From a virus: a stretch of 35,510 nucleotides of DNA. The DNA is taken from the IMG/VR virus record IMGVR_UViG_3300017742_000042, positions 1 to 35,510 of that record. One strand, written 5' to 3'. The notes under the pieces were generated by a model that was given only the letters and a program-made list of their open reading frames with translations, ran no database searches and had not been told where the DNA came from. Below, piece by piece: positions 6,733 to 32,154 of this stretch. How positions within the stretch are numbered: the first letter of the stretch is position 1; each line of letters begins with the position of its first letter. A program made the translations under genes and the position numbers.

Positions 6733-9700
6733 ATGCCACAGGAAACTAACCTCAACGTTGCTCCTTATTTTGACGACTTTGATCCGCAGAGTAACTACTA
6801 CAAAGTTCTCTTCAAGCCAGCATACCCAATTCAGGCTAGAGAGTTAAATAATCTACAATCCATTCTTCAAAATCAAATTGAAGATATGGGTACTCATTTC
6901 TTCAAAGAAGGAGCTAAGGTTATTCCTGGGCAGTTGACATATCTGCCTAATTTTTATGCAGTTCAGATTGAATCTGAATTTTTAGGTATTCCTGTATCTC
7001 TTTACCTTGATCAACTTGTTGGTAAGAAGATTACTGGTGCAGATTCTGGTGTAACTGCTGAAGTTGTCACATATATCACTGACCAAGAGTCAAATACTGG
7101 TAATTTTACCCTTTATGTTGACTATCATGATTCAAGTAGTACAGATAATTCAACTAGAACTTTCTTTGACAACGAAAATCTGATTACAACTGATAATATA
7201 ACTTTTGAGACCACATTTATTGCTGCTGGAGAGGGTCTTGCGAGAACTTTAACAGAAAATGCTAACTCTGTTGGTTCTGCATTTGCTCTGGGTGAGGGTG
7301 TTTACTTCCTAAGAGGGTGTTTTGTTGATGTTCAAGATCAAATCCTAATTTTAGATCAGTATACCAACAAACCATCATATAGAATTGGTCTGGTCATTAC
7401 TGAAAATTTGATTTCTTCGGATATTGACCCATCTCTAAACGATAACGCTAAGAATTTTACTAATTACACCGCTCCTGGGGCTGATAGACTAGAAATTAGA
7501 GCTGTTTTGGGTAAAAAAGACAGATTTGATTACAATGATCAGAATTTTGTTCAATTGGCAGAGGTTAATAATGGTATTTTAAGAGAAATTAATACCTCAA
7601 CTGATTACAATATGCTTGGAGAGGAATTAGCCAAGAGAACTTTTGATGAATCTGGTCATTATTATGTAAAACAGTTTGTAACCACTGTTAAAGAGAGTTT
7701 GAATAATGGAATTGGTAATAGAGGAATCTATAATCCCAATCAAACTACTTCTAGTGGCCAAAAACCATCTGAAGACCTTATGGTCTATAAAATTAGTCCT
7801 GGTAAGGCTTATGTTAAAGGATATCCCATCGATATTGTTGGTCCAACCTTCCTAGATGTCCCAAAAGCAAGAACAACAAAGAATCTGAAAAATCAGTCGG
7901 TTAATTTTGGGTTTGGACCGTCATTTTCCGTAAATAATGTTACTGGATCACCATTTATAGGTTTCAATAATACTAATTTCCTGAGTTTGAGGAGTAATAG
8001 AGTTGGATCTGCCACAACTGATTCAGCTGGTAAGGAAATAGGTGTTGCTAGAGTTTATGACTTCGCTCTGGAAAGTGGATCATATGAAATCTCTCAAAAA
8101 TCACTAAATCAGTGGGATTTGTCACTTTTTGACATTCAAACATATAATGACTTCGAAGTCAATGAGAATGTCACACTCACTATCCCTTGTTTCATTGAAG
8201 GTGAGTCTAGTGGAGCTACAGGTTATCTCAGATACCCCGTATCAGTTGGAACTGGATTCACAGCCTATAATATCAATGGTAATTTTTCTCTTGGTGAAAG
8301 ATTGAAGTTTAATGGTGAAGATTTCGGTCAAAGAACAGTTATTGACTCTAAGAAATTTGAAACATCTGATGTTCAGTCAGTTTATGGTATTGTTGGATCT
8401 GCTGGAACATTTACAGCTGATTTGATACCTCAGACAGCTGGTGTAATTGGTATTGCTTCAATTTCTACTGGTCATTATGATGGAAGTCCTCTAGGTATTG
8501 CAACAATTAGTGGTCCAGGTGGTCCTTTCCCTGGAATTGTAACAACTGGAAATTTGATCAAATATTCTAATTCTGGTCTCAACGTACAGTCATTTGGTAG
8601 AGTTACTAATGTTTCCACCAATTCTTTTGAGATCGTTGGTGTTCAGACGGTCACAGGTTTTGTTGATGGTCGTCTTCCTTCTGAAGATCTGAGTGTAACT
8701 GATCTGGAGGTCATTGAGTCAAGAACTCAACTGCATTCAAAATCTAGTGGTAATATTGCTGATAACAATTCCTTGTTCTCGGCACTTCCTAAAAAGTTTA
8801 TCTCAAACGTAGATCTAACTGATTCCACATTGATTATCAGAAAACAGTTTGATGTAGTCATAGCCGATAATTCAACTGGTAGTATTAACTCTGATCCTGG
8901 TGAAGTGTTCTTGCCATATGATGAAGAAAGATATAGTTTGATTAGTGACGCCGGTCAAATACAAATTCTTTCTTCTGACAGATTTACATTTGCAGCTGGT
9001 AGTAATCAGATCACAATAAGTGGTCTGGATAATGATGGACCAGCTAAACTCATCTGCACACTTCGTAAAACAAATGTTACACCTAAAGTTAAGATCAAGA
9101 AGGTCTCCTCAACTGTAATTATTGATAAGTCTAGTAATAGTGGTTCTGGTATAGGTGCAACAACATTAAATGATGGTCTTACTTATGGTTCGTTCCCATA
9201 TGGAACAAGAGTTCAGGATAGAAATATTTGTCTGAATGTACCTGATGTTAATATGGTATATGGCATATTCCAAGGAGAAGGATCCAATGATCCAGTTGCA
9301 CCATCAATGGTTTTGGGTTCAATGGATGGCCCAACAAATACCACAAATGACATTATTGTTGGTGAGGAAGTTATTGGTTCTATTAGTGGAGCTAGAGGTC
9401 TTTATATTACTAGACTTACTGATACTAATATTGAGTTCATCTTTGAGAATCAAACACCATTTGAACCTGGAGAAGTCATCAACTTCCAAGATTCTGGTGT
9501 AAGTGCTGTAGCTACAAAGATTTCAATGGGAAGTAAAAATATTACTTCATCATTTGATTCTAAGTCTGGACAAAGAAAAACAATTTATGATTTTAGTAGA
9601 ATTCAGAGAAGAGAGGGAGCTTCAATTCCAACCAATAAGATTAAAGTTTACTTCATGAGTGCTGAGTACGATTCAGCAGATACTGGTGACATTACTATTT

Positions 9701-12700
9701 GCAACTCATACAACGGGTTTAATTATTCTACAGATATCGCAACGTTTGCTGGATTCAGACTTACTGATCTAATTGATGCAAGACCTAGAGTTTCACCATA
9801 TACACCAACATCTAGTTCTAGATCACCATTTGAGTTCTTTGGTAGATCGTTTAATGGTGGTCAACATAGTTCTAGAAATATTCTGGCTTCAGATGAATCT
9901 ACAACTATTGGTTTTGATTATTATCTGGGAAGAATTGATAGAGTTTATCTTGATAAGGATGGTATTTTCCAAGTAAAACAGGGTTCTCCATCTGATAATC
10001 CTGTTTTACCTATGGGTATTACTGGATCGATGAACATTTCCAATTTGTATATCCCAGCATACACTCACAGTGTACAGAATGTAGAAACAGCATTTATTCA
10101 ACATAAGAGATATCAAATGACTGATATCTCCAAGTTGGAACAGAGAATCAAGAATCTTGAATATTATACTTCTTTGAATCAACTTGAGTCTACAACGATG
10201 AATCAATTCATCCCAGACGCCAATGGTCTGAATAGATTCAGATCTGGTATCTTTGTTGATAACTTCCGTGATATTCGGAATCAAGACCTCAGTATTGGTG
10301 CTAAGAACTCTATTGATAGGTCTGAAGGTATTTTGAGACCCTCTCACTACACTACCAATAAGACTCTCATGGTCGGTAACGACACTATGTCTGGAATTGG
10401 TACTGGCACAAACTCAAATGAAGACTCTAAATTTGCCAATATTCTGGGTGAGAACACCAAGAGAACAGGTCAGATAATCACTCTTGATTATTCAGAAGAG
10501 TCATGGTTAAAACAACCATTTGCTACTCGTTCTGAAAGTGTTACTCCTTTTCTTGTTCAGTTCTGGAATGGTACAATCTCATTTGAACCAAGTGTAGATG
10601 TTTGGATTGAGGTGAATGAACTTGACGTTAAGGATGTTCTTCAGGAAGGATCCTTCAGGGGTGTCGCTGAGGCTATGAGAGCTGAAGTTACGACAAATTC
10701 TGATGGTAAGAGATCTGGTATTTCTCCTGTTATCTGGAAAGCCTGGGAAACAACTGGAGTAAACGTTAGTGTAGATCTAAGTCAGAGGGCATCTAAAAGT
10801 AAGCCATATACTTCTGAAAGACAGGGCACTAGACACGAGTTTGGTACTGTGTTTGGTGTTGGTACCCGTGAGACCCACCCTGATGTTCCCTCCAGTTTTA
10901 AAGTTACTGAAGAGCATGTTGATACTAATGTCACAACAGACCTCACAGTTGGTGTTCAACTCAACCAACAGAGAAGAGGTACTCAGACCAGTGTAACTGA
11001 ACAAATTGATACTGAATCTCTCGGTGATAGAATTGTAAATCGTGAAGTTATTCACTTCATGAGATCTCGCAACATTCAGTTTACATCTAAGAGTCTGAAA
11101 CCATTTACACAAATGTACTCATTCTTTGACAATGTAGATGTCAACAAGTATGTGATGCCTAAATTGGTCGAAGTTACTATGACATCGGGTACATTCGTAG
11201 TTGGTGAGGCCATCGGTGGTTTGATGCCATCTTCACTCTCAGAACAGTCTGTTGATGATACAAATACAAATTTTGAAGGTGCATCCCCAACAGCATCAAT
11301 CGCAGCTATTGTAGCTAGAGTCGCTGACCCAACACATAAGTATGGTCCATATAATAGACCATCTACCAAGTACGACAGAAATCCATATGATAGAGAAAAC
11401 AGACTACCAACCTCATACACTGAGTCTACGACTATTCTGAACATTGATATATCATCACTAGCTGATGAAACTAACCCAGAATATCAAGGGTATATCGCAA
11501 AGGGAATGGTTCTTCTTGGTGTCAATAGTGGAGCTAGAGCTACTGTTACTGACGTAAGATTGGTTAGTGATCGTGTCGGTACATTGATTGGTTCCTTTAG
11601 AGTTCCAGGAAATGAAGATTCGACATCTCCTAGATTTGAGACTGGTAACAATAGATTCAGAATCACCTCAAGTTCAACTAATAGTAGAGTTGAAGGTCTG
11701 GTTTCTACTTCCGCTGAGGATAACTTCTATTCACAGGGTGATATAGATGATACACAAGAAGTTACACTCTCATTGAGAAACGCTAGAGTTGAACATAATG
11801 ATAATTTCGTTGAGACTAGAAGTACAGTTGAAGGTTCAGGTTCTGATACTTCAACAGTAACCACTGGAACTTCTTCCAGATTGACTGGTGAGTATAAAGA
11901 TCCCCTTGCACAATCATTCATTGTTGATGATGAAACAGGTATCTTTGTAACATCTTTAGATCTATACTTCCAAGAAAAACCAACAGAGTTTTCAGAACCT
12001 GTTACTGTTCAAATTCGTGAAGTTGAACTGGGTACTCCTTCTCAGAAAATTATTCCATTCTCTGAAGTTCAGAAAACACCAGACGAAATTGAAGTTTCAA
12101 ATGATTGTAGTATTGTAACTAAGTTCACTTTTGAATCTCCTGTATATCTGAATGGTCAGAGAGAATATGCTATCATCATTCTCTCCAATTCCACTGAGTA
12201 TAGAGTTTGGATATCTAGACTTGGTGAGGTTGACGTTCAAACTCTTGGATCAGAGACTGATCAGATTCTGGTTACGACTCAGAGACTTCTGGGTTCATTG
12301 TTCAAGTCACAGAATGCTTCTACTTGGACACCATCTCAATATGAAGACCTCACATTTGAACTTTACAGAGCTGAGTTCCAACCAAATGGTAATATTCAAC
12401 TCTTCAACCCATCACTGGATGACAATGATAGAATCATTCCCCATAACGGTGTTGTATCGAGTTCTAGGACCATCAAAGTCGGATTTGGAACTACAACTAC
12501 AGAATCTGATCTTAAACCAGGTAATCTGGTCACACAGAGAATTACTGGGGCTACAGGTAGATTTGTAGGATACGGTGGTTCTGCTTCACAGATGAATCTA
12601 AGTATCGTGAACTCTGGTATTGGATATACCCCAAGTTCTGGTACTCTCAAATATACCGGTGTTGCTATGACATCACTCTCTGGTGATGGTATCAATGCCA

Positions 12701-14355
12701 CAGCAGATTTGACAATCACTAATGGTGTGGCAGTCGGAGCTAGTATTAATTCTGGTGGTTTTGGGTATCAGGTCGGTGATATCTTGGCACCATTAACAAT
12801 TGGTACAGGTCTCGGTGATGGTATTAAGGTTTCTATCTCAACAATTCATGGCAACAATGAACTAACACTCAATGATGTCCAAGGTGAATTTGGAACAACT
12901 GTTGGTCAAATTCTTGATTACACCAATTCCGCAGGTGTAACCACCACCTTTAACTACGACGCAAATCCAAGTGGTATGGTTCCTGAGGCACCAATTCGTG
13001 TAGTGACTAATGGTGATCATCTCAGAATTGACCAGAGAAATCATGGAATGTATTCCAATACAAACGTCGTATCTCTGAAGGATATTAGTTCTAACATTTC
13101 ACATACAACTCTTACTACAGAGTACAAATCTGACTCTACAACATCCATCGCGATTGCAAATACATCGAACTTTGGTATATTTGAACATCTTGGAATTGGA
13201 ATTACCAATCCTGGTTATATCTTGATGAATGATGAGATCATTAAGTATACTGGCATGTCTGGTAATGAATTGACTGGTATTACTAGAGGTATTGATGATA
13301 CAAACATCATTGATCATGGTGTTGATGAGATTGTTCAGAAATATGAGTTCCATGGCGTATCTCTGAGAAGAATTAATAAGGATCATCTGATGAACGCAGT
13401 CACAGAACCTAATGCATTCGATACTGACTTCTATAAAGTTAAGATCGATATGTCACAGAATGGTCTAGACAGAACTGGTTCAATTTATCCTAAATTGTAC
13501 TTCGACACTTCTGATTCTGGTGGTGGTAACAAAGCAATGGGTTCTTACAATATCCCATTCTCACAGGCAATTCCTAAGATTGAAACTATCACTCCAACCG
13601 GAACTAGTATTGATCCATCAATGAGAACAATCTCGGCTACCAGTATCTCTGGTAATGAAGGACCATTCGTTGATCAAGGATTTGAAAAGATCGCTCTTGG
13701 TCAGGTCAACTACTTTGATACTCAGAGAATGATGGCTTCGCCAACTAATGAAAATCTGTTCCTTGATGATCTTCCTGGTAATAAGTCAATGTCTATTAGT
13801 CTTGACCTAAATTCCTCTGATAGTAGGATTTCACCAGCAGTTGATGTTGATCAAATGTCTGTAACTCTAATCTCAAACAGAGTAAATGAACCAGTATCTG
13901 ATTACGCTAACGATCCTAGAGTTGACAGTGTTCTTACAGATCCTAATAAGTTTATGTACGTGACAAAACCAGTCATTCTTGCAAACCCAGGAACTTCTAT
14001 TCAAGTTTACCTTGACGCATTCTTGACTAAAGATTCTGACATCAGAGTATTCTTTGCTATCGATCAGGAAGGACCAGCTAAAGATGTAATCTTCACACCA
14101 TTCCCTGGTTCCAACAACTTCGCATCCAATGGATCTGTTATCAACTTTAATAGTAGTAACGGAGCTCCCGATCAACCAATCACGAAGAGTGATTCATTGA
14201 ATCAAGATCCTAGTATCAGCATGTATAGAGAGTACAAATTCTCCATAGATAATCTACCAGCATTTGGTTCATTTAGAATTAAACTGATTGGTACATCAAC
14301 CAATCAAGCAAGTCCACCAATGATTAGGAACTTTAGAACCCTTGGATTAGCATGA
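6733..14355 (+). CDS. giant baseplate/fibre-network structural protein (DUF4815-like N-terminus)
   Basis: At 2540 residues this is the largest gene in the window. The N-terminus (ETNLNVAPYFDDFDP, then FKPAYPIQARELNNLQSILQ) resembles the DUF4815-type start of large tail/baseplate proteins in myoviruses. The rest is mostly beta-rich. It includes several GE-x-I-x-G-x-x-SGA-type segments (for example IIVGEEVIGSISGARG), a coiled-coil-like stretch near 1130-1160 (SKLEQRIKNLEYYTSLNQLE), GxGY modules at ~1962-1965 and ~2008-2012, and near 2130-2190 a module shared with the C-terminus of gp15. Its place immediately after gp8 and before the neck genes corresponds to the T4 gene 9-12/wac region, none of which is otherwise recognisable here. 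It may therefore replace several T4 baseplate or fibre-attachment proteins. Baseplate location is fairly safe; exact homology to gp7, gp10 or others is not established. Confidence 0.75.
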   Translation: MPQETNLNVAPYFDDFDPQSNYYKVLFKPAYPIQARELNNLQSILQNQIEDMGTHFFKEGAKVIPGQLTYLPNFYAVQIESEFLGIPVSLYLDQLVGKKITGADSGVTAEVVTYITDQESNTGNFTLYVDYHDSSSTDNSTRTFFDNENLITTDNITFETTFIAAGEGLARTLTENANSVGSAFALGEGVYFLRGCFVDVQDQILILDQYTNKPSYRIGLVITENLISSDIDPSLNDNAKNFTNYTAPGADRLEIRAVLGKKDRFDYNDQNFVQLAEVNNGILREINTSTDYNMLGEELAKRTFDESGHYYVKQFVTTVKESLNNGIGNRGIYNPNQTTSSGQKPSEDLMVYKISPGKAYVKGYPIDIVGPTFLDVPKARTTKNLKNQSVNFGFGPSFSVNNVTGSPFIGFNNTNFLSLRSNRVGSATTDSAGKEIGVARVYDFALESGSYEISQKSLNQWDLSLFDIQTYNDFEVNENVTLTIPCFIEGESSGATGYLRYPVSVGTGFTAYNINGNFSLGERLKFNGEDFGQRTVIDSKKFETSDVQSVYGIVGSAGTFTADLIPQTAGVIGIASISTGHYDGSPLGIATISGPGGPFPGIVTTGNLIKYSNSGLNVQSFGRVTNVSTNSFEIVGVQTVTGFVDGRLPSEDLSVTDLEVIESRTQLHSKSSGNIADNNSLFSALPKKFISNVDLTDSTLIIRKQFDVVIADNSTGSINSDPGEVFLPYDEERYSLISDAGQIQILSSDRFTFAAGSNQITISGLDNDGPAKLICTLRKTNVTPKVKIKKVSSTVIIDKSSNSGSGIGATTLNDGLTYGSFPYGTRVQDRNICLNVPDVNMVYGIFQGEGSNDPVAPSMVLGSMDGPTNTTNDIIVGEEVIGSISGARGLYITRLTDTNIEFIFENQTPFEPGEVINFQDSGVSAVATKISMGSKNITSSFDSKSGQRKTIYDFSRIQRREGASIPTNKIKVYFMSAEYDSADTGDITICNSYNGFNYSTDIATFAGFRLTDLIDARPRVSPYTPTSSSRSPFEFFGRSFNGGQHSSRNILASDESTTIGFDYYLGRIDRVYLDKDGIFQVKQGSPSDNPVLPMGITGSMNISNLYIPAYTHSVQNVETAFIQHKRYQMTDISKLEQRIKNLEYYTSLNQLESTTMNQFIPDANGLNRFRSGIFVDNFRDIRNQDLSIGAKNSIDRSEGILRPSHYTTNKTLMVGNDTMSGIGTGTNSNEDSKFANILGENTKRTGQIITLDYSEESWLKQPFATRSESVTPFLVQFWNGTISFEPSVDVWIEVNELDVKDVLQEGSFRGVAEAMRAEVTTNSDGKRSGISPVIWKAWETTGVNVSVDLSQRASKSKPYTSERQGTRHEFGTVFGVGTRETHPDVPSSFKVTEEHVDTNVTTDLTVGVQLNQQRRGTQTSVTEQIDTESLGDRIVNREVIHFMRSRNIQFTSKSLKPFTQMYSFFDNVDVNKYVMPKLVEVTMTSGTFVVGEAIGGLMPSSLSEQSVDDTNTNFEGASPTASIAAIVARVADPTHKYGPYNRPSTKYDRNPYDRENRLPTSYTESTTILNIDISSLADETNPEYQGYIAKGMVLLGVNSGARATVTDVRLVSDRVGTLIGSFRVPGNEDSTSPRFETGNNRFRITSSSTNSRVEGLVSTSAEDNFYSQGDIDDTQEVTLSLRNARVEHNDNFVETRSTVEGSGSDTSTVTTGTSSRLTGEYKDPLAQSFIVDDETGIFVTSLDLYFQEKPTEFSEPVTVQIREVELGTPSQKIIPFSEVQKTPDEIEVSNDCSIVTKFTFESPVYLNGQREYAIIILSNSTEYRVWISRLGEVDVQTLGSETDQILVTTQRLLGSLFKSQNASTWTPSQYEDLTFELYRAEFQPNGNIQLFNPSLDDNDRIIPHNGVVSSSRTIKVGFGTTTTESDLKPGNLVTQRITGATGRFVGYGGSASQMNLSIVNSGIGYTPSSGTLKYTGVAMTSLSGDGINATADLTITNGVAVGASINSGGFGYQVGDILAPLTIGTGLGDGIKVSISTIHGNNELTLNDVQGEFGTTVGQILDYTNSAGVTTTFNYDANPSGMVPEAPIRVVTNGDHLRIDQRNHGMYSNTNVVSLKDISSNISHTTLTTEYKSDSTTSIAIANTSNFGIFEHLGIGITNPGYILMNDEIIKYTGMSGNELTGITRGIDDTNIIDHGVDEIVQKYEFHGVSLRRINKDHLMNAVTEPNAFDTDFYKVKIDMSQNGLDRTGSIYPKLYFDTSDSGGGNKAMGSYNIPFSQAIPKIETITPTGTSIDPSMRTISATSISGNEGPFVDQGFEKIALGQVNYFDTQRMMASPTNENLFLDDLPGNKSMSISLDLNSSDSRISPAVDVDQMSVTLISNRVNEPVSDYANDPRVDSVLTDPNKFMYVTKPVILANPGTSIQVYLDAFLTKDSDIRVFFAIDQEGPAKDVIFTPFPGSNNFASNGSVINFNSSNGAPDQPITKSDSLNQDPSISMYREYKFSIDNLPAFGSFRIKLIGTSTNQASPPMIRNFRTLGLA

Positions 14356-25065: not shown

Positions 25066-26724
25066 ATGGCTGATAATGTATATCTTGGTAATCCCCTTCT
25101 AAAGAAGGCTAATACTCCAATTGAGTTTACACAAGAACAAATTGAGGAGTATATTAAATGTAAGGATGATCCTGTGTATTTTGCACAGAACTATGTTCAG
25201 ATTGTGACTCTGGATCATGGACTTCAACCTTTCAAAACTTATGATTTTCAAGAGAAGTTAATTAATAGATTTCATAATCACAGATTTAATATCTGTAAGA
25301 TGCCAAGACAGACTGGTAAATCCACTACCTGTGTATCTTACCTTCTTCACTATGCAATTTTTAATGACAGTGTTAATATAGGAATATTAGCTAACAAAGC
25401 AACCACTGCTAGGGAGCTCCTATCAAGACTTGCAACCGCATATGAAAACCTACCCAAATGGATGCAACAAGGCATCCTCGTCTGGAACAAAGGAAACATT
25501 GAGCTCGAAAACGGCAGTAAGATATTGGCAGCTTCTACGTCTGCAAGTGCTGTCCGAGGCATGTCGTTTAACATTCTCTTCCTCGACGAATTCGCCTTCG
25601 TTCCAAACCATATTGCGGACGCCTTCTTTGCATCTGTTTATCCTACTATTACTTCTGGTAAATCAACGAAAGTAATCATCGTTTCCACCCCACATGGTAT
25701 GAATCATTTCTACCGTATGTGGCATGATGCGGAGAGAAATAAAAATGAATATGTTCCCACGGATGTTCACTGGTCAGAAGTTCCTGGTAGAGATGCTGTC
25801 TGGAAAGAACAAACTATTGCCAACACATCAGAACAACAATTTAAGATTGAGTTTGAATGTGAATTCTTAGGATCTGTTGACACACTGATTGCACCTAGTA
25901 AGTTAAAATCTTTAGTATTTGAACGACCGCGTAAGTCAAACGCCGGATTAGATATTCACGTAGCACCAGAAAATGAACATGATTACGCGATTGCTGTTGA
26001 CGTTGCACGGGGTGTTGGTAATGATTACTCTGCTTTTGTTGTTGTTGACATAACTACTTTCCCACACAAGGTTGTGGCGAAGTATAGGGATAACATGATC
26101 AAACCAATGTTGTTCCCTAGTGTCATCTATGATGTAGCCAAGAGTTATAATGAAGCTTTCATATTATGTGAAGTCAATGACGTTGGTGACCAGGTGGCAA
26201 GTATTTTACAATACGATCTTGAGTATCAGAACCTACTGATGTGTTCTATGAGAGGTAGAGCTGGTCAAGTCGTTGGTCAGGGATTTTCTGGGACAAAAAC
26301 ACAACTTGGCGTTAAAATGTCCAAGACAGTCAAGAAAATCGGGTCACTTAATCTGAAAACTATGATTGAGGAAGATAAACTCATCATGAATGACTATGAA
26401 ATTATTTCAGAACTAACTACTTTTATCTCTAAACATAATTCATTTGAGGCAGAAGAAGGGTGTAATGATGACTTGGCTATGTGTCTTGTCATCTATGCTT
26501 GGTTAGTGGCTCAAGATTACTTCAAAGAACTTACAGATCAAGATGTTAGGAAACGACTTTATGAAGAACAGAAGAACCAAATTGAACAAGATATGGCACC
26601 CTTCGGTTTTATTAACGATGGACTCAATGTTGATTCTTTTGTGGATGATGAAGGAGACCGTTGGTTTACCGATGAATATGGCGACAAAGGAGGAGGAATG
26701 GACTACATGTGGAACTACCTATAA
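25066..26724 (+). CDS. gp17: large terminase subunit gp17 (ATPase/nuclease)
   Basis: A 552-residue protein (T4 610). The ATPase half has a Walker A-like RQTGKS (Lys85), Walker B ILFLDEF (Asp174, Glu175) and the coupling motif VSTPHGMNHFY (206-). The nuclease half has an RNase H-like acidic set: Asp312 (AIAVDVARG), Glu369 (LCEVND) and the CNDDLAM pair (Asp468/Asp469). All key residues are intact. It powers DNA translocation into the prohead through gp20 and cuts the concatemer. The ATG comes 7 bases after the previous stop with a poor ribosome-binding site. Codons ~126-190 use many GGC, CTC, TTC and GAC codons, unlike the rest of the gene. Confidence 0.95.
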   Translation: MADNVYLGNPLLKKANTPIEFTQEQIEEYIKCKDDPVYFAQNYVQIVTLDHGLQPFKTYDFQEKLINRFHNHRFNICKMPRQTGKSTTCVSYLLHYAIFNDSVNIGILANKATTARELLSRLATAYENLPKWMQQGILVWNKGNIELENGSKILAASTSASAVRGMSFNILFLDEFAFVPNHIADAFFASVYPTITSGKSTKVIIVSTPHGMNHFYRMWHDAERNKNEYVPTDVHWSEVPGRDAVWKEQTIANTSEQQFKIEFECEFLGSVDTLIAPSKLKSLVFERPRKSNAGLDIHVAPENEHDYAIAVDVARGVGNDYSAFVVVDITTFPHKVVAKYRDNMIKPMLFPSVIYDVAKSYNEAFILCEVNDVGDQVASILQYDLEYQNLLMCSMRGRAGQVVGQGFSGTKTQLGVKMSKTVKKIGSLNLKTMIEEDKLIMNDYEIISELTTFISKHNSFEAEEGCNDDLAMCLVIYAWLVAQDYFKELTDQDVRKRLYEEQKNQIEQDMAPFGFINDGLNVDSFVDDEGDRWFTDEYGDKGGGMDYMWNYL

Positions 26725-29728: not shown

Positions 29729-30436
29729 ATGGCTTCAGTAAGAACATTATCATCTTTCAAAACACAATTGGCGGGCGGCGGCGCCCGTCCCAATCTATTT
29801 GAGGTATCAATTCCCTCATTTCCAACAGCACTAACTGGTGCGGTCGATGCTACTGGCGGTGGCGAAGGTGGAGATACAGATACCTCAGATCCATGGACTG
29901 CTTATACAGAAAACTTTAAGTTTTTGTGTAAAGCAGCTCAACTTCCAGCTTCAACAGTGAATCCAATCAGTGTTCCTTTTAGAGGTAGAACTCTGAAAGT
30001 CGCTGGTGATAGAACATTCGCTGAGTGGACAGTCACCATCATCAACGATGAGGACTTTACTCTGAGAACCGCTTTTGAGAAGTGGAGTGATGTTGTATCG
30101 AACTTAATTGACAACACTGGTGTTACTAATCCAACCTCTTACATGACCAATGGTTATGTCAAGCAACTAGGTCGTGGTAACAAGGCATTCTCGGATAAGA
30201 ATAGTCCAGGAACTGTCAGTGTTCTGAGGAGCTATAAGTTCTATGACATTTGGCCTTCTGAGATCAGTGAGATTGCACTTAGTTATGACAGTGCTGACAC
30301 AATTGAAGAATTCACTGTAACCTTCCAGGTTCAATACTTCACTATTGGTGAATCCGATGAGACCGCAGCTGGTGAAGGTGCTAACACAGGTTCCATTACT
30401 GATGAATCTGTCGCAACTGGAACTGCAGATGCGTGA
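29729..30436 (+). CDS. gp19: tail tube protein gp19
   Basis: A 235-residue protein (T4 163). ARPNLFEVSIPSF matches T4 ARPNLFQVEI, and FLCKAAQLPAS, VAGDRTFAEWTVTIINDEDF and the final FTVTFQVQYF strand also match. This is the inner tube through which DNA passes. The extra length is a Gly/Asp-rich insert near residue 45 (DATGGGEGGDTDTSDP) and an acidic Gly/Thr tail of ~30 residues. There is a good ribosome-binding site (CGGAGAA). Codons 13-22 are extremely GC-rich and form a hairpin (29767-29794). Confidence 0.94.
   Translation: MASVRTLSSFKTQLAGGGARPNLFEVSIPSFPTALTGAVDATGGGEGGDTDTSDPWTAYTENFKFLCKAAQLPASTVNPISVPFRGRTLKVAGDRTFAEWTVTIINDEDFTLRTAFEKWSDVVSNLIDNTGVTNPTSYMTNGYVKQLGRGNKAFSDKNSPGTVSVLRSYKFYDIWPSEISEIALSYDSADTIEEFTVTFQVQYFTIGESDETAAGEGANTGSITDESVATGTADA
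29767..29794 (+). other. GC-rich hairpin near the start of gp19
   Basis: ATTGG (29767-29771) pairs with CCAAT (29790-29794), and CGGGCG (29772-29777) with CGCCCG (29782-29787), with a GCGG loop and a two-base bulge. This 11-bp hairpin lies 38 bases after the gp19 ATG in an otherwise AT-rich genome and spans the codons for LAGGGARPN. Confidence 0.55.
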
Positions 30437-30445
30437 TTTTTGAGT

Positions 30446-30453
30446 TATAAATA
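30446..30453 (+). promoter_or_regulatory. putative late promoter (TATAAATA) for gp20
   Basis: An exact TATAAATA lies 31 bases before the gp20 ATG. Its last five bases are the start of the left arm of the perfect hairpin at 30449-30476. The expected transcription start (~30459) is at the arm/loop border. Confidence 0.65.
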
Positions 30454-30476
30454 CTAGGAGATAGATCCTAGTATTT
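30449..30476 (+). terminator. perfect inverted repeat between gp19 and gp20
   Basis: AAATACTAGGA and TCCTAGTATTT form a perfect 11-bp stem with a GATAGA loop, ending in T-rich sequence, 13 bases after the gp19 stop and 7 before the gp20 start. It fits a bidirectional-type terminator or an RNA processing hairpin for transcripts coming from gp19. It overlaps a late promoter, so new transcripts starting here would lack its left arm. Confidence 0.6.
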
Positions 30477-30483
30477 ACTTGAA

Positions 30484-32154
30484 ATGGCGAGATTATTTGG
30501 TTTCTCAATTGAAGATAATGAAAAGACCCCGGAGAGTGTAGTATCTCCAGTACCACCAAGTAATAATGATGGTACGGACCACTACGTCTCTTCGGGGTTT
30601 TATGGCAGTTTTGTAGATATTGAGGGTGTTTATAAAAATGAAAATGATCTAATTCGTAGATATCGTTCAATGGCACTCTATCCTGAGTGTGATAGTGCGA
30701 TCGAAGATATTGTAAATGAAGCGATCGTGGCGGACACGAATGATAGTCCTGTAACGATTGATCTTCAAAACTTAAATGCTAGTGATGGCATCAAGAAAAA
30801 GATCAAGGAAGAGTTTAAATATATTCTTGAACTTCTTGATTTTGACAAAAAAGCTCATGAAATCTTCCGCAACTGGTATATCGACGGAAGACTATATTAC
30901 AATAAGGTCATCGACCAAAAAGACCCCTCAGCTGGTATTCAGGAACTGAGGTATATTGATGCGTCGAAGATGAAGTTCATTCGTCAAGTCAAAAAGAATC
31001 CAAAAGATGCACTGAACAATCTTGAAAGAGGTGGTAGGGACAACCCACAGAGTTATAACTTCCCAGAACTAGAAGAGTATTTTGTCTATACTCCTGGCAA
31101 TACAAAGGCAGGTTCGATTGCCAGTTCCTTCACTGCTGGAAGTGCAAAGGGTGTTAAGATGACCCGTGACTCTGTCACATATTGTACTTCTGGTCTAGTA
31201 GATAGAAATAAAGGATCAACTCTGTCTTGGCTCCACAAGTCAATTAAACCACTCAATAAACTGATGATGATTGAAGATGCTTTGGTTATCTACAGACTTT
31301 CGAGAGCCCCAGAACGTAGAATCTTTTATATTGATGTAGGAAATCTACCTAAGGTAAAGGCAGAACAATATCTTAGAGATGTAATGATGCGTTATAGAAA
31401 CAAGTTAGTCTATGATGCAAATACCGGTGAGATTAGAGATGACAAAAAACATATGTCTATGATGGAGGACTTCTGGCTTCCTAGACGTGAGGGGGGTAGG
31501 GGAACTGAAATCTCCACACTTCCTGGTGGTCAAAACCTTGGGGAGATTACTGATATCCAATATTTCCAGAAGAAACTTTATCGCTCATTGAATGTACCAG
31601 AAACAAGACTTCAGGGAGATAGTGGATTCTCCTTGGGTCGTTCTTCTGAAATCCTGAGGGATGAGATCAAGTTCTCCAAGTTTGTTGGAAGAATGAGAAA
31701 AAGGTTCTCAGCAATGTTTAGTGACATGTTGAAAACTCAACTCCTCCTTAAGAATGTGATTACAACTGAGGATTGGAACTACATGGGTGATCACATCCAG
31801 TATGACTTCCTCTATGATAACCACTTCTCTGAACTCAAAGAGTCAGAACTTTTTGAGAATAGGTTGAACCTTGCTGGTTTAGCTGAACCTTATGTTGGTA
31901 AGTATTACTCTCAGGAGTATGTTAGAAGAAACGTTCTCAGACAGACTGATGCTGAGATTGAAGAACAGGATAAGATGATGAAAAAAGAAATCGCTGATGG
32001 TACAATCATCGATCCTAAAGAAGTTCAGAATATGCAAATGGCATCTCAAGAACTTGATTTTCAAAGCCAGATGAATACTGCTGAAGGTGGTGGTGAGGGT
32101 CCAAAAGAACCCGAAGCAGAAGAAACCCCAAAACCCAAGGGTGGCGACATCTAA
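30484..32154 (+). CDS. gp20: portal protein gp20
   Basis: A 556-residue protein (T4 524). Recognisable T4-like portal segments are PECDSAIEDIVNEAIV near residue 65, LRYIDASKMKFIRQVKK, YRLSRAPERRIFYIDVGNLP, EDFWLPRREGGRGTEIS, FQKKLYRSLNVPETRL and FSLGRSSEILRDEIKFSKFV. The portal dodecamer sits at one head vertex, nucleates prohead assembly and is the docking point for gp17 and later gp13. The C-terminal ~35 residues are acidic and Pro-rich. Codons ~14-40 are embedded in a long RNA hairpin (30523-30601). There is no clear ribosome-binding site right before the ATG. Confidence 0.96.
   Translation: MARLFGFSIEDNEKTPESVVSPVPPSNNDGTDHYVSSGFYGSFVDIEGVYKNENDLIRRYRSMALYPECDSAIEDIVNEAIVADTNDSPVTIDLQNLNASDGIKKKIKEEFKYILELLDFDKKAHEIFRNWYIDGRLYYNKVIDQKDPSAGIQELRYIDASKMKFIRQVKKNPKDALNNLERGGRDNPQSYNFPELEEYFVYTPGNTKAGSIASSFTAGSAKGVKMTRDSVTYCTSGLVDRNKGSTLSWLHKSIKPLNKLMMIEDALVIYRLSRAPERRIFYIDVGNLPKVKAEQYLRDVMMRYRNKLVYDANTGEIRDDKKHMSMMEDFWLPRREGGRGTEISTLPGGQNLGEITDIQYFQKKLYRSLNVPETRLQGDSGFSLGRSSEILRDEIKFSKFVGRMRKRFSAMFSDMLKTQLLLKNVITTEDWNYMGDHIQYDFLYDNHFSELKESELFENRLNLAGLAEPYVGKYYSQEYVRRNVLRQTDAEIEEQDKMMKKEIADGTIIDPKEVQNMQMASQELDFQSQMNTAEGGGEGPKEPEAEETPKPKGGDI
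30523..30601 (+). other. long imperfect RNA hairpin inside the start of gp20
   Basis: Reading inward: 30523-30536 pairs with 30588-30601 (14 bp, two G-U pairs, core ACCCCGGAGAG/CTCTTCGGGGT). After a bulged T at 30587, 30537-30542 pairs with 30581-30586 (6 bp, one G-U). After a small internal loop, 30546-30548 pairs with 30576-30578, then 30550-30555 (GTACCA) with 30570-30575 (TGGTAC), leaving a 14-base loop. In total about 29 pairs lie within a coding stretch using rare-looking CCG, ACG and TCG-GGG codons. Confidence 0.65.

Follow-up and report, generated by a model that had tools for sequence, protein, structure and literature searches.

Phages are known to regulate the translation of single genes through RNA operators, among them the targets of the MS2 coat protein and of T4 gp43, gp32 and RegA, which lie at ribosome-binding sites and carry conserved recognition letters. 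The fold described here, within the portal gene (gp20) of marine cyanophages, resembles these operators in being an mRNA element that may act on the translation of a phage gene, but it differs in that it begins some 37 nt into the coding sequence and varies in its letters. Events early in elongation also influence yield in Escherichia coli (PMC6920384), and the translational ramp is, like the gp20 fold, a start-proximal coding feature with the potential to set ribosome flux. In the available text of PMC6920384 the effect is placed at codons 3-5 and reported to be independent of overall mRNA structure, whereas the fold in gp20 is strong and gene-specific, spans codons 13-40 and is kept across a phage family. 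The structured RNAs manA, wcaG and PhotoRC-II have been described from T4-like cyanophages (PMC2864571); the available part of that paper assigns manA and wcaG to putative 5′ UTRs before metabolic genes and has no mention of gp20, whereas the gp20 element is intragenic. According to the accessible text of PMC3037559, promoters and terminators had to be intergenic or no more than 10 bp from a gene end, so that an element within a gene would not have been reported there. Start-proximal structure in coding RNA is an already known kind of element. No RNA structure in gp20 is described in the titles and abstract openings of the open-licence PMC papers searched, and we know of no gene-specific, shape-only coding RNA structure across the portal gene of a phage family.

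The window, that is the whole 35,510-nt stretch of viral DNA analysed here, includes a T4-type cyanophage structural module of gp19, gp20, gp21 (protease), gp22 (scaffold) and gp23 (capsid). The portal gene was named by tblastn against 2501 phage records, the top matches being annotated as portal, and gp19, gp21, gp22 and gp23 were named from gene order by comparison with S-PM2. The features around the start of gp20 are the following.

29729-30436, gp19, tail tube, placed by gene order against S-PM2.
30446..30453, + strand, late-type promoter TATAAATA, 30 nt 5′ of the gp20 ATG.
30448..30477, + strand, 12-bp perfect inverted repeat overlapping the promoter.
30466..30483, + strand, start-site region without a Shine-Dalgarno-like 4-mer.
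30484..32154, + strand, gp20, portal vertex protein of 556 amino acids.
30523..30601, + strand, RNA hairpin inside gp20 at codons 14-40, with 31 pairs in the minimum free energy (MFE) structure.

The TATAAATA motif before gp20 is taken here to be a T4-type late promoter, and the late transcript, if its start follows the promoter-to-start spacing that we assume from T4, would begin about 24 nt upstream of gp20. The preliminary description had seen both the promoter and another hairpin ahead of the portal hairpin; both are present, the latter being the 12-bp repeat, and because the two overlap, a transcript from TATAAATA would miss most of the left arm of the repeat. Similar CTAG...CTAG repeats occur 3′ of the promoter in many window-like relatives (L001-L059). 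The promoter assignment draws on the available text of PMC3037559 together with general knowledge of T4. Among the matches listed, TAAATA is present no more than 60 nt upstream of gp20 in all 138 non-redundant genes collected for this study, and a Shine-Dalgarno-like 4-mer at -18 to -4 in only five of them. At the loci found with the window as query, again among the matches listed, a Shine-Dalgarno-like motif is absent from all 61 distinct gp20 upstream regions and present before gp19 (42/42), gp22 (28/36) and a minority of gp21 genes (13/48); among the matches listed for S-PM2 proteins it precedes gp23 in 46 of 66 cases and gp13 in one of 18. With the copy numbers of virion proteins taken from general knowledge, these motifs tend to accompany abundant virion proteins, and gp20, gp13 and most gp21 genes do without them.

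The hairpin itself consists of a 14-bp outer stem with a CCCCG/CGGGG core, followed by segments of 6, 3, 6 and 2 pairs; these are the 31 pairs of the MFE structure, against about 29 counted over 79 bases in the preliminary description, which was right that the hairpin is real. Its energy is -41.2 kcal/mol (z -6.90; 0/200 dinucleotide shuffles as stable), and it remains intact when folded in a 301-nt context. When synonymous codons were shuffled in the 20 open reading frames (ORFs) of the window, codons 11-40 of gp20 ranked first of 1032 windows (z -6.26, -42.2 kcal/mol); the next ten by z run from -6.07 to -3.66 with energies of -19.9 to -27.5, and the 14 other members of the top 15 by z have energies of -17.1 to -27.5. 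The earlier judgement that such a structure is unlikely to arise by chance therefore holds also against shuffles that preserve the amino acids. So does its remark on unusual codons, since CCG, ACG, TCG and GGG make up only 3%, 4%, 5% and 5% of their amino-acid families over the 20 ORFs, and G+C is 48% in the hairpin versus 39% in the window. In the protein, the element falls within the linker that separates a GFFG/GYFG/GYYG motif from the N-terminal LFGF motif of gp20. A search of the window against Rfam gave no match at the gathering score. By codon shuffles, the coding windows that rank second and third for structure begin at 26056 (codon 331 of the ORF at 25066-26724, z -6.07) and at 10123 (codon 1131 of the ORF at 6733-14355, z -5.46).

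Relatives of gp20 were collected from viral contigs, each search contributing its best 80 matches, and all counts from them are counts among the matches listed and no census. A first set of 80 gp20 loci yielded 56 non-redundant genes, the window included, and three further groups came from searches with gp20 of S-PM2, S-RIM8 and P-SSM2. The groups were set by search query and not by a tree; sets A and B have contigs in common (for example L079 and L291), and the earlier set A contains B-like genes. Regrouping and removal of duplicates gave 138 non-redundant genes in groups A1 (35), B (54, from 58), C (34) and D (15). Loci with a missing 5′ end or an unclear start were excluded (L034, L149, L204, L226, L338-L341 and L365), as were L399 from the gp13 controls and L455, L466, L472, L473 and L482 from the gp23 controls; L020, L043 and L054 were taken in one codon late. 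The codon-shuffle null keeps amino acids and codon counts but not dinucleotides, and ordinary windows have a baseline z of about -0.6 against it.

In the first set, among the matches listed, codons 13-42 have a mean z of -6.17, with 55 of the 56 genes below -2 and 54 more stable than every one of their 25 shuffles; the mean z of the 13 other blocks of gp20 lies between -0.05 and -1.99. Before regrouping, the mean z was most extreme within codons 7-42 in each of groups A-D (A -6.4, n=49; B -5.5, n=44; D -3.5, n=15; C, n=34, -5.9 for the window at codon 7 and -5.5 for that at codon 13). After regrouping, codons 13-42 average z -6.2 in A1, -5.2 in B, -5.4 in C and -3.4 in D (n=35, 54, 34 and 15, among the matches listed). 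Values below -3 are found in 34/35, 49/54, 31/34 and 11/15 genes, respectively, and thus in 125 of 138 genes the region is more stable than the same protein and codons would make it, as expected of selected coding mRNA structure. The nine named cyanophages examined range from P-SSM2 (z -9.0), S-SM2 (-7.1), ACG-2014a (-5.1), S-PM2 (-4.9), S-RIM8 (-4.4) and P-TIM68 (-4.3) to the weak folds of S-CREM2 (-2.8), ACG-2014f (-2.7) and S-RIM2 (-2.6). The RL2RES group (E, n=5) has no comparable peak, with a mean z of -0.9 at codon 13. Rhizobium phage RL2RES gp20 (L086 from 705; L333 from 601) has a strong start-proximal fold of its own (z -4.9 at codon 7 to -5.5, and -6.0 for L333), and of two relatives, L334 is weak at codon 7 and reaches -4.6 at codon 37, and L335 has no fold.

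Folding is biased towards the sense strand. At stem positions, G-U outnumbers A-C by 63:0 in group B, 261:5 in D and 158:7 in the window-like genes, and by 138:66, 290:94 and 203:47, respectively, in codon shuffles. The structures had themselves been selected on these sense alignments, which makes the counts partly circular, and a direct strand comparison was therefore added. Beyond what shuffles give, the sense strand is more stable than the antisense strand in all four groups, as expected of selected mRNA structure, by a mean of 5.0 (A1), 1.7 (B), 5.1 (C) and 4.6 (D) kcal/mol; it is favoured in 28/35, 37/54, 32/34 and 14/15 genes (Wilcoxon p of 7e-7, 0.003, 6e-8 and 2e-4, kinship ignored), the signal being weakest in group B. 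Antisense folds, too, are more stable than their own shuffles (mean z -2.2 to -4.6), as any palindrome must be.

What is kept between groups is the shape, and the pairing letters differ; in two groups the peptide differs too. Among the folds printed, most of those from window-like genes are a single long hairpin. Group B has its hairpin about the SPVP...DG codons; in group C a G-rich/C-rich hairpin is accompanied by a second one, as is the GAAGGTCCC/GGGACCTTC-type hairpin of group D, which is built in another peptide. With kinship ignored, the window-like group has 50 double-changed cells versus 15.7 in shuffles and 2-19 in slid structures, and group D has 17 versus 3.3 and 0-6; in both groups double-changed cells and covariation score exceed those of 500/500 shuffles and of all slides. 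The number of pairs with a double change is not above shuffles (window-like 7 vs 5.5, with 91/500 as high; D 2 vs 1.6, with 325/500), so that the compensation expected of selected mRNA structure is seen in the cells and the covariation score and not in the pair count. One group D pair joins two third codon positions and reads UA 27 times, CG 5 times and AU 4 times, with none of 36 broken, again with kinship ignored. The peptide fixes some of the pairs, 71-88 and 74-85 being invariant in 43 window-like genes.

The 43 relatives do not retain the window's 31 pairs one for one: 990 of 1333 cells pair, versus a shuffle mean of 793, with a G-U to A-C ratio of 140:60 (190:127 in shuffles); the 22-pair core from RNAalifold is paired in 895 of 944 cells of the 43 relatives. 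For group C (-1.1 kcal/mol, 4 pairs) and the mixed first set (0.0), no useful consensus came out of RNAalifold, and group C rests on single-sequence energies because its stems, by eye, slide between sequences. The preliminary description had expected reduced synonymous variation in codons 14-40, and no such reduction was seen: in 35 window-like genes, synonymous differences per codon are 0.46-0.47 at codons 13-40 versus 0.42-0.46 in later blocks and a slow 0.29 at codons 1-12, and among 484 windows of 28 codons, ordered from the slowest, the one at codon 13 is 390th. The stem-breaking drift without compensation that it named as contrary evidence did not appear, since the fold persists and compensating changes are present. 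Its proposal of selection at the RNA level gains strong support from the codon-shuffle z scores, the compensation and the strand asymmetry, and the conclusion that structure in early gp20 coding RNA is under selection is well supported.

The same strength of folding was not found at the corresponding position of neighbouring genes. Among the matches listed for the window-query loci, the mean z at codon 13 is -6.1 in gp20 (45/49 below -3) and, at the same loci, -2.3 in gp19 (16/58), -2.3 in gp21 (15/41) and -1.1 in gp22 (0/36); at loci found with S-PM2 proteins it is 0.0 in gp23 (0/61) and -1.1 in gp13 (1/24). Moderate signals below -3 occur in control windows at codon 43 of gp22 (13/36), codon 81 of gp23 (14/61) and codon 111 of gp13 (6/24), and codon 7 of gp23 has a mean z of -2.3 (18/61 below -3). 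Nor is the fold a rule for all portal genes, a possibility rejected on two grounds: in T4-type gp20, 0/22 genes, some of them near-identical, fall below -3 at codon 13 (6/22 at codon 7, with energies of -20 to -25), and the portal gene gp8 of the T7-like P-SSP7, a single genome, has z 0.4 at codon 13 and -3.2 at codon 1. Within S-PM2, gp20 ranks fourth of 2205 windows in 39 genes, behind p087, gp13 and gp6, which have start-proximal windows as structured as that of gp20 (z -6.2 to -6.9).

L344 17333-18163, S-PM2 gp13.
L343 40758-49001, S-PM2 p087.
L343 27258-29066, S-PM2 gp6.

The S-PM2 gp13 fold (z -6.6) was rejected as a conserved element, with 5/24 genes below -3 at codon 19.

The explanation that fits best, to which we give a probability of about 0.45, is that codons ~13-40 of marine cyanophage gp20 mRNA act as a cis translational brake on the portal protein. 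Initiation on the late transcript would probably be weak, without the help of a Shine-Dalgarno motif. The leading ribosome, some eight codons on, would meet the base of the stem near +37 and pause, and while paused it would still cover the start region, so that the next ribosome may be delayed and portal synthesis capped relative to capsid. The portal is present as one 12-mer per head, and harm from excess portal is the presumed reason for a brake. Somewhat more tentative is the fuller proposal of a portal-dose device, in which a shape-only fold after a start without a Shine-Dalgarno motif sets the portal-to-capsid ratio by translation and not by promoter strength. The fold, the selection on it, its strand bias, the contrast between genes and the missing Shine-Dalgarno motif are supported by computation, and from them we infer the pause, its size and its benefit. 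Several observations speak against the brake. The P-SSP7 portal gene and T4-type gp20 manage without a fold at codon 13, single S-PM2 windows elsewhere are as extreme, and ACG-2014f and S-CREM2 are weak. A low dose does not require a fold, because gp13 is a low-copy protein whose gene has neither a Shine-Dalgarno motif nor a conserved fold, and because ribosomes unwind structure, a large effect of the brake is not assured. Of the three functions proposed in the preliminary description, slowed portal translation nevertheless fits best, its mechanism being the conjectural part; an RNA-processing site found no support, as groups C and D have short hairpins and not one long helix in the folds printed.

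The third, a transcription attenuator in which a promoter-proximal hairpin followed by U's would stop some late RNA polymerases within gp20 unless a ribosome is close behind, is unlikely. It keeps some weight because U's follow the GC-rich stem in three of the four groups, as in an intrinsic terminator (TTTT at nt 103-135 in 33/35 A1, 53/54 B and 27/34 C genes, among the matches listed), and because Phe codons 39/40 in the window-like group are TTT 59 times versus TTC twice, against 342:347 in the rest of the gene. Pairing with the A's in codons 13-14 would call for the same preference, and the U run of the hairpin does pair with A's in the window and in window-like folds. Where codon 14 is Arg, codon 39 is TTC in 3/4 genes versus 1/39 otherwise (43 window-like genes, kinship ignored), the U run being interrupted by the matching C. 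An unpaired U run after the stem, expected of an intrinsic terminator in all members, was not found, since the U's are paired and only 3/15 group D genes have TTTT; the element also differs from such a terminator in its long loop and in its position inside a gene that is essential in T4, and a terminator scan (loops ≤8) did not flag the + strand site. On these grounds the attenuator proposal is weaker than the translational brake.

A role in aiding initiation, by which the early fold would free the start from competing structure or hold the ribosome and so raise gp20 output, is improbable. The lack of Shine-Dalgarno-like motifs before gp20 (0/61) and the slow synonymous sites at codons 1-12 (0.29) accord with it, but gp13 (1/18) and most gp21 genes (13/48) also lack the motif and have no comparably conserved fold, and mean pairing around the ATG, from -9 to +18, is not low (0.47-0.67 in A1, B and C; 0.32-0.73 in D). 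About as improbable is a binding site for an RNase or for a phage or host protein, for instance in autogenous feedback by the portal or in coupling to head assembly: the fold is specific to gp20 among the genes tested, as such a site might be, but the folds printed show no loop, sequence motif or single architecture common to the groups. A role like that of pRNA or of an sRNA sponge was set aside, no shared motif having been noticed in the folds. It is very improbable indeed that the signal is not one of RNA but a by-product of coding constraint or a palindrome at the DNA level, for although the peptide fixes some pairs and the antisense strand too beats its shuffles, amino-acid-preserving shuffles lose the fold, group D builds it from another peptide and the sense strand is favoured in four groups.

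How a phage makes one portal ring and hundreds of capsid subunits per head is an old question, and a portal gene without a Shine-Dalgarno motif but with a conserved fold just inside it offers a concrete candidate for dose control in abundant ocean viruses. These phages are commonly typed by gp20, a standard marker gene, whose 5′-end thus evolves under a constraint that models usually leave out. More generally, this coding RNA is apparently selected for its shape and not for its letters, and elements of this kind would be missed by searches for conserved sequence or for slow synonymous sites.
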